Shown here: positions 4,112 to 7,532 of the stretch, in pieces
Layout of the letters: the number at the start of each line of letters is the position of its first letter
Numbering within the stretch: the first letter of the stretch is position 1
Assembly: GCA_029881805.1 (NCBI GenBank)
Contig: JAOULW010000003.1
Span: 62,001 to 126,000 of the forward strand
Direction: 5' to 3'
Source: Candidatus Bathyarchaeota archaeon
GTDB taxonomy: Archaea > Thermoproteota > Bathyarchaeia > Bathyarchaeales > Bathycorpusculaceae
Length of the DNA stretch: 64,000 bases
Made by a program: the position numbers and the translations under genes
Notes under the pieces: generated by a model
Told to the model about the DNA's origin: nothing
The model's input: only the letters and a program-made list of their open reading frames with translations
Databases searched by the model: none

Positions 4112-4124
4112 AAAAATAAATATA
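4112..4124 (+). promoter_or_regulatory. AT-rich TATA-box candidate for the thiamine operon
   Basis: An A/T-only run (AAAAATAAATATA) lies 20-40 bases before the TPP aptamer and is the best TATA candidate in the valS-cytX intergenic region. With an archaeal spacing of about 25 bases, transcription would begin between about 4140 and 4148. The exact start decides whether the hairpin at 4141-4159 is part of the RNA. Confidence 0.45.
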
Positions 4125-4149
4125 CGACTAAATAAATTATCCCCTACAA

Positions 4150-4248
4150 GGTTTAGGGGAGCTGGGAAACGTGACCTGGCTGAGAGGACGACTGAAAGCG
4201 TCGTCGACCCTCAGAACCTGATCCAGGTAATGCTGGCGGAGGGAAAAA
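4150..4248 (+). promoter_or_regulatory. TPP (thiamin pyrophosphate) riboswitch
   Basis: The segment has the conserved parts of a TPP aptamer in order. GGGG at 4156-4159 pairs with CCC at 4208-4210 as P2. AGCTGGG and CCTGGCT flank an 8-nt loop as P3 and are followed by the pyrimidine-binding CTGAGAGG. A variable P3a stem GACGAC/GTCGTC follows. The pyrophosphate-binding arm ACCTGATCCAGG then TAATGCTGGCGGAGGG closes it. P1 is weak (TTT with AAA). It sits directly upstream of three thiamine genes. No U-run terminator is visible before cytX, and the last aptamer bases form a Shine-Dalgarno-like GGAGGG, so control of translation is more likely than termination (inference). Confidence 0.95.
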
Positions 4249-4249
4249 T

Positions 4250-4330
4250 ATGAAAATAGACGGAAACAGTTCTCCAACTGAAAAATCTAGTTTTCTAAAT
4301 AATATTTTGGAGGAGCATTTGAATGGTTAA
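4250..4330 (+). CDS. Short leader ORF (26 aa) between the riboswitch and cytX
   Basis: ATG 4250 opens a 26-codon frame (MKIDGNSSPTEKSS...) that ends at TAA 4328-4330, overlapping the cytX start (4323) by 8 bases. GGAGGG at 4238-4243, part of the TPP aptamer, lies 6 bases before this ATG at ideal ribosome-binding distance. If translated, the frame would couple ligand binding to cytX through termination-reinitiation. No peptide homologue is recognised and the frame could be fortuitous. cytX also has its own GGAGGAG at 4309-4315. Confidence 0.4.
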   Translation: MKIDGNSSPTEKSSFLNNILEEHLNG

Positions 4331-5582
4331 GCTACCACCCGAATGGGGAACAGAACCAGTACCAGCCGACAAGAGAATTCTAAGATCTGTGGATTATTTT
4401 TTCCTATGGTCTAGTCTAGCAGTAGGTTTGCTTGTGCTTCAAGCTGGTGGTCTGCTTGTTCCGGGTCTATCTGCCTCTGAATCAATAGCCATTGCGATAT
4501 TAGGTTCACTCATAGGCTCTCTTATGCTCGGATTGGCTGGAGGTTTAGGAAGCAAGTATGGTATACCGACAATGGTTAGCCTGAGAGGAGTTTTAGGGTT
4601 AAGAGGATCCTATATTCCAACAATACTCAACGTGGTTCAACTAATCGGCTGGGCTTCGTTTGAAATACTAATAATGGCCAATTCAGCCTTGCTTATTGCT
4701 GGTCCATTTCTAGGCTCGTACACTTTATACTTTTGGATTCTGATTTTTGCACTCTTTTGTATGCTCTTATGCATAGGCGGTCCCTTAATAGTCATAAGAC
4801 AATGGCTCGAAAAATTTGCGATATGGTTAACATACGGCACCGCCATCTTTATCACCTATATAGTTCTTTCCAATTTCCCACAAATCCTTTCGCAACCAGG
4901 AGATGGCTCCTTGCCACTGACGTTAGCATTAGACCTCGTTATAGCAATGCCAATCTCATGGTGGCCTTTAATATCAGACTACAATAGATTTTCAAAAGGC
5001 GAGAAAGGAGCATTTCTAGGAACAGCCACTGGTTATACTTTTGCAAACTCGTGGTTTTACGCCTTAGGTGCATTAATTGTTCTGGCTTACACTAATCAAG
5101 CAGTAATATCGGCCATAGTTTCTATCACCTTCGGAGGTTTAGCTTTAGCCATACTTTTGGTTGATGAAACCGACAATGGATTTGCCGACATTTATTCTGG
5201 GGCCGTGTCAATGCAGAATATTATACCTAAAGTCAAACAGTGGAAGCTTATCGCAATAATTACTGTGATAAGCATATTCCTAGCTGCGTCAATACCTCAA
5301 GACTGGCAATTCACGTATGAGAGTTTCCTACTCTACATAGGAGGAGTTTTTGTGCCTCTCCTAGGCGTGCTTGCAATTGATTTCTATGTAATCAAGAAAA
5401 AACAATATACTAAAGAAGAGTTCTACTCCTCAGCAAAGAGCCTAAGAATTAAACCATTGTTTGCTTGGTTTATCGGAATCTTGACATATTTCGCATTTTA
5501 TAGTTACACGAATCTGGGCTCAAGTATACCGTCCTTCATAGTTTCAGCACTTGTTCTTTACACGCTTGAGAAGGTTATCTGA
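4323..5582 (+). CDS. cytX: NCS1-family permease, probable hydroxymethylpyrimidine (HMP) transporter CytX
   Basis: This 419-residue protein has about 12 hydrophobic segments and the nucleobase:cation symporter-1 pattern. The N-terminal PPEWG and the segment GGLGSKYGIPTMVSLRG are characteristic of the cytosine permease/CytX branch. CytX proteins are assigned to uptake of the thiamine pyrimidine. The position behind a TPP riboswitch and in front of the HMP-phosphate kinase domain supports that substrate over cytosine. GGAGGAG at 4309-4315 precedes ATG 4323 by 7 bases. The stop is one base before the thiDN start. Confidence 0.9.
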   Translation: MVKLPPEWGTEPVPADKRILRSVDYFFLWSSLAVGLLVLQAGGLLVPGLSASESIAIAILGSLIGSLMLGLAGGLGSKYGIPTMVSLRGVLGLRGSYIPTILNVVQLIGWASFEILIMANSALLIAGPFLGSYTLYFWILIFALFCMLLCIGGPLIVIRQWLEKFAIWLTYGTAIFITYIVLSNFPQILSQPGDGSLPLTLALDLVIAMPISWWPLISDYNRFSKGEKGAFLGTATGYTFANSWFYALGALIVLAYTNQAVISAIVSITFGGLALAILLVDETDNGFADIYSGAVSMQNIIPKVKQWKLIAIITVISIFLAASIPQDWQFTYESFLLYIGGVFVPLLGVLAIDFYVIKKKQYTKEEFYSSAKSLRIKPLFAWFIGILTYFAFYSYTNLGSSIPSFIVSALVLYTLEKVI

Positions 5583-5583
5583 A

Positions 5584-6951
5584 ATGGTCAAACAGAAAAG
5601 CAGAATTCCAGTGGCTATTTCAATTGCCGGAAGCGATTCTGGAGGAGGCGCAGGAATTCAAGCAGACCTCAAAACTTTTGCAGTGTTAGGCGTTCATGGA
5701 ACGACGGCAATAACCGCAGTCACAGCACAGAATACCATGGCCGTTGTTTCTGTCGAAGATTTGAAGCCTGAAATGATTCGAACCCAAATAAGAGTAGTGG
5801 CGGAAGACCTAGGAATTGATGCGGGAAAAACAGGAATGCTCCACACGAGGGAAATAATCAAAACTGTTGCGGAAGAGGTCTCAAAGTATAGGTTTCCTTT
5901 AGTTGTTGACCCAGTTATGGTTGCTAAATCCGGTTCGCCATTGCTGATTCCCGAAGCCGTGGATGCTTTGAAGAGCTATCTTCTGCCAAAGACTACCGTT
6001 GTAACACCGAACAGATTTGAAGCTGAAAAACTGGCAGATGCGAAAATTGAAGAACTCAAAGACGTGGAGAACGTGGCTAAAAAAATTTCGATGATGGGAC
6101 CTAAAGCCATCGTTATCAAAGGTGGACACTTGGAAGGCAAAGAAGCAATTGACATCTTGTATCATGAAGGCAGAATCAAGACATTTAAAGCTCAAAGAAT
6201 CGACTCTAGAACAACGCACGGGACTGGCTGCAGCTTCTCAGCGGCCATAGCGGCTGAGCTTGCCAAGAAGACACCAATACCGGTCGCTGTTGAAAAGGCC
6301 AAGGAAATTGTTACATTGGGCATAAAATTTGGATTGACTATTGGAAATGGTTATGGGCCTGTTAATCCTTTGGCTCATCTCTATCGTGAATCCTCACGTT
6401 ATAGTGTTTTGATGAATGTAGAAAATGCCAAGAAGTACATCGAAGCATCACCTGAGGCCGTGGTGCTCGTTCCAGAAGTCGGCATGAACATTGCTATGGC
6501 AATTCCGTATGCAGAAAACATTAAAGATATAGCAGCGATAGAGGGCAGAATCGTTAAAACTCTTGAAGGAGCGAAAGCTGTAGGTAACGCAAAATTTGGA
6601 TGCTCCTCCCACTTGGCCAAATACATTCTTGAAATCCGCAATCACGACGAAAGGAAGGTGGCGGCAATAAACTTCAAATTTTCCGAGAAAATTCTGAAAA
6701 TTCTGGAGAAGCGGGGTATGATTATTTCCTTCTATGATAGAAGAGAAGAGCCTGAAAAAACAAAAAAAGTTGAAGGAATGACCATTCCTTGGGGTGTAAA
6801 AGAGGCCATAAGAAGAATCAAAAAAGCCCCAGACGCCATTTACCATAGAGGAGACGTAGGCAAAGAGTCCATGATAGTCCTTTTCGGTGAACAAGCGTTT
6901 GAACTAGCTAATCTCGTCACAAAAGTTGCAAGTGAAGTTGAAAAGGAATGA
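5584..6951 (+). CDS. thiDN: Bifunctional HMP/HMP-phosphate kinase and ThiN-type thiamine-phosphate synthase
   Basis: The 455-residue product is a two-domain fusion. Residues 1 to about 260 are ThiD, a ribokinase-fold kinase, with AGSDSGGGAGIQADLKTF near the N-terminus and the anion-hole motif THGTGCSFSAA. It phosphorylates HMP and HMP-P. Residues from about 275 to the end are a ThiN domain (VPEVGMNIAMAIPYA, GNAKFGCSSHLAKY, HRGDVGKESMIV), the archaeal replacement for ThiE that joins HMP-PP to thiazole phosphate. ATG 5584 follows the cytX stop by one base; the open frame extends 11 codons further up inside cytX. Expression should follow the TPP riboswitch. Confidence 0.95.
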   Translation: MVKQKSRIPVAISIAGSDSGGGAGIQADLKTFAVLGVHGTTAITAVTAQNTMAVVSVEDLKPEMIRTQIRVVAEDLGIDAGKTGMLHTREIIKTVAEEVSKYRFPLVVDPVMVAKSGSPLLIPEAVDALKSYLLPKTTVVTPNRFEAEKLADAKIEELKDVENVAKKISMMGPKAIVIKGGHLEGKEAIDILYHEGRIKTFKAQRIDSRTTHGTGCSFSAAIAAELAKKTPIPVAVEKAKEIVTLGIKFGLTIGNGYGPVNPLAHLYRESSRYSVLMNVENAKKYIEASPEAVVLVPEVGMNIAMAIPYAENIKDIAAIEGRIVKTLEGAKAVGNAKFGCSSHLAKYILEIRNHDERKVAAINFKFSEKILKILEKRGMIISFYDRREEPEKTKKVEGMTIPWGVKEAIRRIKKAPDAIYHRGDVGKESMIVLFGEQAFELANLVTKVASEVEKE

Positions 6952-7532
6952 AGATGGAGACGACTTATGTTAAGAAGTTAGCTTTGCTCGCCATATTTTC
7001 AGCTCTTGGAGTAGCTATATCGCCTTTCACTTGGTTTGTAGCCTTCGGAACTAAAGCTTATCCAGCGCAACATATGATAAATGCGATTTTGGGAGTACTC
7101 CTAGGTCCACTGTGGACGACGATTGCAGCTATTTTCATTGGGATAATACGGAATATTTTGGGCACAGGAACGGTATATGCTTTTCCAGGAGGAATCTTTG
7201 GCGGACTAGTTGTCGGTTTAGTATATTGGGTTTTCAAACGTTTAAAACTAAGTGAAAAAATAAGATTGGCGGCTGCTCTTTGCGAACCTATAGGTACTCT
7301 TCTAATTGGCGCTCCTCTGGCCATCTTTTTGGTAGCTCCTTGGATGGGTCCTCAAGGCTATTCGGCGACCCTTTTAGATTTAACAGCAATTGAAGGTCCC
7401 CTCTTCGGCTACCTAATCTTTGTAACTTGGTGGGCTTTAAGCTGCGTTCCGGGAACTGTTTTAGGGTTCACTGTGCTAGTAGTTCTAAAAAGAATTGGGA
7501 TAAGCAGGGAAACACTGTTTGGGGAAAAATAA
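6948..7532 (+). CDS. thiW: ECF transporter S component, ThiW family (thiazole uptake)
   Basis: The 194-residue membrane protein has about six hydrophobic segments. It contains TKAYPAQHMINAILGVLLGP and RNILGTGTVYAFPGGIFGG, patterns I associate with ThiW, the substrate-binding subunit of an energy-coupling factor transporter for hydroxyethylthiazole. The start overlaps the thiDN stop (ATGA); a second ATG lies at 6954. No EcfA or EcfT gene is in the window, so the ATPase and T subunits must be encoded elsewhere. Together CytX, ThiDN and ThiW would let the cell build thiamine phosphate from imported pyrimidine and thiazole, although a ThiM-type kinase is not seen. Confidence 0.88.
   Translation: MKMETTYVKKLALLAIFSALGVAISPFTWFVAFGTKAYPAQHMINAILGVLLGPLWTTIAAIFIGIIRNILGTGTVYAFPGGIFGGLVVGLVYWVFKRLKLSEKIRLAAALCEPIGTLLIGAPLAIFLVAPWMGPQGYSATLLDLTAIEGPLFGYLIFVTWWALSCVPGTVLGFTVLVVLKRIGISRETLFGEK

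Follow-up and report, generated by a model that had tools for sequence, protein, structure and literature searches.

Riboswitches with the ribosome-binding site inside the aptamer

In a recognised 'direct' mode of riboswitch action, the ribosome-binding site lies within the aptamer core; the mode is reported to be common for thiamine pyrophosphate (TPP) riboswitches, mainly in Actinobacteria and Cyanobacteria (Barrick and Breaker 2007, PMC2258182); the account of 'direct translation attenuation' given there builds on a previous comparative survey of genes for thiamin. Here we analyzed a 64,000-nucleotide (nt) stretch of DNA, the window, from Candidatus Bathyarchaeota archaeon (assembly GCA_029881805.1, contig JAOULW010000003.1, positions 62,001 to 126,000), in which a TPP aptamer precedes the thiamine-precursor transporter gene cytX and a 26-codon leader frame starts at the aptamer end. 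The locus resembles the published direct mode in that the ribosome site lies in the conserved core, is provided by the purine-rich 3' strand, needs no separate platform and stands no more than 15 nt from the start codon. It differs in that the layout is the prevailing one in Bathyarchaeia, and in that the direct target in the window is a short leader frame and not a gene.

The closest described relay is that of the B12 riboswitch of Mycobacterium tuberculosis ppe2, in which translation of the upstream open reading frame (uORF) uPPE2 is essential and works mainly by termination-reinitiation (PMC11260477). In both systems a short frame under a riboswitch runs with its stop codon into the beginning of the regulated gene, and a termination-reinitiation relay, demonstrated for ppe2, is proposed for the window. 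The ppe2 system belongs to the B12 class and to a bacterium, with a 4-nt AUGA overlap and a downstream gene that has no Shine-Dalgarno sequence of its own, whereas the window has a TPP aptamer, an archaeal host, an 8-nt overlap (4323-4330) and a cytX with its own Shine-Dalgarno sequence, and the relay is here proposed from sequence. The overlap is not retained in the relatives L085 and L005 (see below). The idea of a leader-frame relay stays plausible because the published B12 riboswitch acts through such a frame.

A third group, the 'direct occlusion' riboswitches SAM-II/III and preQ1-I/II, is listed together in a review (PMC10907184). Ligand binding takes the ribosome site into the aptamer in these as well, but their folds and ligands are different, and the same review counts TPP riboswitches among those that act by strand exchange.

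The action of archaeal riboswitches is sparsely documented. The open-licence literature yielded nothing on bathyarchaeial riboswitches or on archaeal riboswitch-uORF relays, which is weak evidence of absence, and experimental work on an archaeal TPP riboswitch was likewise not found there. As far as checked, the direct mode is known in kind and new in Bathyarchaeia, and a relay through a leader frame would add a new variant. If true, it would, judging by the literature searched, be the first relay between a riboswitch and a leader frame in archaea and, among prokaryotes, the first with a TPP riboswitch. A ribosome site inside the aptamer is a simple, testable mechanism, and leader-frame loci bear on whether a riboswitch signal can pass through an otherwise meaningless short translation event.

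The aptamer end and the 16S rRNA

The window aptamer matched the full Rfam covariance model RF00059 (positions 1-105) with 69.4 bits (E 1.5e-11; gathering score 54.3 bits), and this was the single match in the whole genome. Both conserved cores of TPP aptamers are present, CUGAGA and GAACCUGAU...GCG.AGGG. As originally predicted, base for base, GGAGGG at 4238-4243 belongs to the conserved 3' aptamer strand and lies 6 nt before ATG 4250, and the 26-codon frame opened by this ATG ends 8 nt inside cytX (overlap ATGGTTAA).

The 3' end of the 16S rRNA of this genome reads ...GGATCACCTCCTAAG / ...ATCACCTCCT; its CCUCC is complementary to GGAGG, which is thus able to pair with it perfectly. Background statistics for Shine-Dalgarno sequences were obtained within the 64-kb window. 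In folding predictions for leader-length transcripts, ATG 4250 was about 0.9 unpaired. A start codon belonging to the regulated gene, as in direct attenuation, is found in L005 and in the loci of the thiamine transporter ThiT; in the window the start codon opens the 26-codon frame.

The aptamer end as ribosome-binding site in Bathyarchaeia

RF00059 was searched for in the family, order and class, and about 160 loci were compared. Matches were found in 75 of the 90 family genomes and in 162 of the 256 class genomes. Behind 109 of 164 distinct bathyarchaeial aptamers a long frame, the first gene, opens 3-10 nt (mostly 6, 7 or 8 nt) after ...AGGG with ATG, GTG or TTG. The gene that starts directly is usually thiT (Pfam Thia_YuaJ; TIGR02357 for one representative). 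The frequency of direct starts indicates that the first gene normally has its ribosome-binding site in the aptamer end, and comparison of these loci strongly supports this role as a general one in Bathyarchaeia. Most of the loci show no sign of a separate expression platform. The proposal that the conserved 3' strand is itself the ribosome-binding site, with no separate platform, is borne out for most TPP aptamers of the class, including that of a cytX that starts directly in L005/L086.

A G stands in 137 of the 164 aptamers where the Rfam consensus has u (GCGuAGGG); it completes GGAGG, but the final P4 pair of the Rfam alignment is lost. Direct starts follow 101 of the 137 GGAGG aptamers versus 1 of the 14 with GTAGG (Fisher p 1.4e-6, with no correction for kinship). 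Use as a ribosome site would explain the G for the usual U in GCGUAGGG of these aptamers. Outside the class, eight further loci of the phylum were found, four with a long frame 8-9 nt behind the aptamer (L211, L213, L214 and L216) and four without.

A gene for a ParA/MinD-like ATPase, unexpected in a thiamine regulon, starts from the aptamer ribosome site in L026 (G053), L060 (G007; Pfam AAA_31/CbiA), L130 (G096) and L132 (G145). In L149 (G143) a gene for a MEDS/KaiC-like sensory protein starts directly from the TPP aptamer. A few direct transporter loci have an open frame with no ATG, GTG or TTG, and the codon at the expected start, 7-9 nt behind the aptamer, is ATA (L022/L067, L075), ACG (L055) or CTG (L151); these may be non-standard starts or assembly errors.

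Proposed control of the leader frame and of cytX

In the TPP class, ligand binding organises J4-5 and P4. Since the J4-5/P4 strand is here the Shine-Dalgarno sequence, its occlusion in the TPP-bound state would follow directly. With TPP bound, GGAGGG would be locked into P4 and the ligand-binding strand next to it, which would keep ribosomes from starting at ATG 4250; at direct loci this would shut the gene itself, and in the window the 26-codon frame. When TPP is absent, ribosomes would start at ATG 4250 and translate the 26-codon frame, which spans the linker and the Shine-Dalgarno region of cytX. They would terminate 8 nt into cytX, an arrangement that favours termination-reinitiation, and then reinitiate at the cytX ATG or help others to initiate there. 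The sequence of the leader peptide would be of no importance. Some independent, basal translation of cytX from its own Shine-Dalgarno sequence is likely. The leader frame of the window would be a local derivative of the direct layout from aptamer to gene that is the rule in Bathyarchaeia. Comparison establishes the aptamer, its complementarity to the 16S rRNA, the link between aptamer end and start codon throughout the class and the start codons kept in GGAGGG leaders. We infer TPP binding, occlusion, leader-frame translation and coupling to cytX from this arrangement, and we regard a TPP-gated leader frame coupled to cytX, that is, a translational OFF riboswitch with the aptamer end as ribosome-binding site, as the best reading of the locus, with an even chance of being correct.

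Leader frames compared with shuffled linkers and related leaders

Taken alone, the leader frame is modestly unusual. Among dinucleotide shuffles of the window linker, 20% had a start codon at +5 to +9 and about 9% had ATG there (p about 0.09), while a frame ending 1-12 nt inside cytX occurred in 1.3%. It is the family context that makes the aptamer Shine-Dalgarno sequence convincing as such.

The comparison covered 14 thiC and cytX leaders that lack a direct start. Of these, 11 have a start codon at +5 to +9, against 4.0 expected: it was found in all eight leaders with GGAGGG (about 1.9 expected; product of shuffle expectations 7e-6) and in three of the six with GTAGGG, numbers that overstate the significance because the leader sequences are related. 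The consistent start codon behind a retained GGAGGG favours translation of the short frames, and initiation itself, rather than the peptide, may be what is conserved. Leader frames of exactly nine codons precede thiC in L015, L017, L024, L031 and L036, where they follow the pattern M[NS]xxxFxxx and stop, and in the more distant L124; in all six a separate Shine-Dalgarno sequence comes next, then thiC about 74-83 nt behind the aptamer. In a wider generalization, the TPP aptamer would serve Bathyarchaeia as a universal cassette for translation initiation: it would usually start the transporter gene directly and, for the more distant cytX and thiC, gate a sequence-indifferent leader frame that passes on the TPP signal by reinitiation. 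This generalization is tentative and seems rather doubtful.

This cytX was present in only 2 of the 90 family genomes, and a scan of GTDB genomes gave one further genome with a closely related aptamer-cytX pair (aptamers confirmed). In L005 (= L086; CytX 73% identical to that of the window), cytX opens with a GTG that follows the aptamer after 6 nt, with no leader frame between them. In L085 (CytX 78% identical) the distance from the aptamer to the cytX start is 79 nt, the same as in the window, and a separate leader frame and a GGAGG of its own precede cytX. The linkers of the window and L085 are homologous (local score 21, versus 8.9 +- 1.8 for shuffles).

The direct start in L005 would also suit an assembly or sequencing error in the window, with cytX truly starting at ATG 4250 and split by one miscounted base. 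This is very improbable, as L085, an independent assembly, has the same arrangement of separate leader frame, own GGAGG and cytX at +79, and as an in-frame TGA stands immediately before the cytX ATG of the window.

Several results weigh against the coupled leader frame. The L085 aptamer ends in GTAGGG, a weaker site than GGAGGG, with ATG at +9. Indels with lengths not divisible by three shift its leader frame (MYKRKSFSPFENLVP, then stop), which terminates upstream of the cytX Shine-Dalgarno sequence, so that the overlap is not kept. Owing to this shifted frame and early stop, the leader peptide, frame, length and overlap are judged not to be conserved in L085, the sole homologous leader, and only two cytX leaders with a separate leader frame are known. 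In the window, cytX has a good Shine-Dalgarno sequence, GGAGGAG, equal to the aptamer site and not mentioned in the original prediction. Folding predictions leave it partly paired (unpaired 0.13-0.34), but 24% of shuffled linkers hide the site at least as well, so coupling is not clearly required. Helix P1, which would be expected to close the site, is weak in the window and in the class (about 2 of 5 pairs). The prediction that the leader frame feeds cytX survives in part: all eight GGAGGG leaders have a suitably spaced start codon, and an ATG is present even in L085, at +9. Frame and overlap are lost there, next to a homologous aptamer, which is in part the outcome that the original prediction named as its refutation, and L005 has no leader frame at all.

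A conserved P1 helix that closes over the spacer was also considered, as pairs such as GGUUU/AAACC and GGUCU/AGACC seemed to covary. This candidate was rejected: all direct loci together gave 2.04 of 5 pairs, hardly more than the 1.90 of re-dealt strands, and 81 of 2000 re-dealings reached the observed pairing.

Alternatively, the leader frame may be a by-product, with a Shine-Dalgarno sequence and start codon left over from an ancestor whose aptamer end served the main gene itself, as in L005 or the ThiT loci; cytX would then use its own GGAGGAG and be regulated otherwise or weakly. We consider this possible, though on balance doubtful. It would account for the non-conserved frame of L085, with its indels and GTAGGG, for the independent cytX Shine-Dalgarno sequence conserved in the window and L085, and for a start codon that about one shuffled linker in five has at +5 to +9. 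It sits less well with an intact GGAGGG and well-spaced ATG in the window and with the eight of eight GGAGGG leaders that have such a start. Nor is a thiT remnant in the linker supported: an in-frame SSPT and a shared AGTTCTCCAACT pointed to one, but the best alignment to more than 100 direct gene starts was no better than those of shuffles, being reached by 120 of 200.

Ordinary strand exchange would make the leader frame irrelevant: linker and aptamer would swap pairings, and TPP binding would hide the cytX Shine-Dalgarno sequence in a hairpin. A weak hairpin, UUUUCUAAA/UUUUGGAGG, is indeed predicted, the linker is conserved with L085, and other lineages use clear sequestering hairpins, as in L106. 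We nevertheless think this unlikely. Sequestration in the window is within the range of shuffles (24%, versus 0% for L106), for which a local hairpin hiding the cytX site was rejected as a candidate, and no clear anti-sequester pairing was found.

By eye, TTCTC(A/C) recurs 15-50 nt behind the aptamer, in the window (4271-4276) and in non-direct leaders such as those of L085, L158, L170, L180, L189 and L198. It is complementary to the aptamer CUGAGA and loosely to GGAG, and is a possible switching strand.

Layout of the locus

The aptamer stands between a divergent gene for a class-I aminoacyl-tRNA synthetase and cytX, with further thiamine genes downstream (Table 1). CytX, whose closest named relatives are from Bathyarchaeota metagenome-assembled genomes, matched TIGR02358 over its full length with 288 bits, slightly below the cut-off of 309.85.

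Table 1. Coordinates of the features at the window's aptamer-cytX locus
Feature	Position	Strand	Basis or remark
Class-I aminoacyl-tRNA synthetase gene, divergent from cytX	4078-1622	minus	
Probable archaeal TATA box (AAAAATAAATATA)	4112-4124	plus	Read from sequence
TPP riboswitch aptamer	4145-4261 (core 4150-4249)	plus	RF00059 match
GGAGGG, P4 3' strand / J4-5 of the aptamer and putative Shine-Dalgarno of the leader frame	4238-4243	plus	Complementary to 16S end CCTCC; homologous site starts main gene in 109/164 relatives
Spacer AAAAAT	4244-4249	plus	
Leader-frame ATG	4250-4252	plus	
26-codon leader frame (MKIDGNSSPTEKSSFLNNILEEHLNG, then stop)	4250-4330 (stop 4328-4330)	plus	No Pfam match; frame not conserved in L085
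Linker homologous to that of L085 (AAAATCTAGTT..CTAAA..ATTTTGGAGG)	4250-4313	plus	Local alignment score versus shuffles
GGAGGAG, own Shine-Dalgarno of cytX	4309-4315	plus	GGAGG likewise precedes cytX in L085
cytX, hydroxymethylpyrimidine (thiamine precursor) transporter, NCS1 family	4323-5582 (ATG 4323-4325)	plus	Pfam PF02133; TIGR02358
thiD-thiN fusion (hydroxymethylpyrimidine phosphate (HMP-P) kinase / thiamine-phosphate synthase)	5584-6951	plus	PRK08573 above cut-off
thiW, energy-coupling factor (ECF) thiamine-precursor transporter S component	6948-7532	plus	TIGR02359 above cut-off

An AT-rich block lies at the same distance from the aptamer in many relatives as the probable TATA box of the window, and transcription is expected to start at about 4145-4150, that is, at the aptamer.

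Just 5' of the aptamer, TCCCCTA (window 4139-4160) is complementary to the 5' strand of P2, TAGGGGA, and a similar C-rich block precedes the aptamers of many relatives; it may be upstream of the transcription start. The CCCC strand was considered as an anti-P2 switch, being present in many relatives and paired so in the predicted fold of the window. It was rejected, since the TATA spacing puts it probably at or before the transcription start.

Most genomes carry one TPP aptamer; G191 and G192 (f15) and G252 and G254 (f27) have 2-5 each, some of them a few kb apart on one contig.
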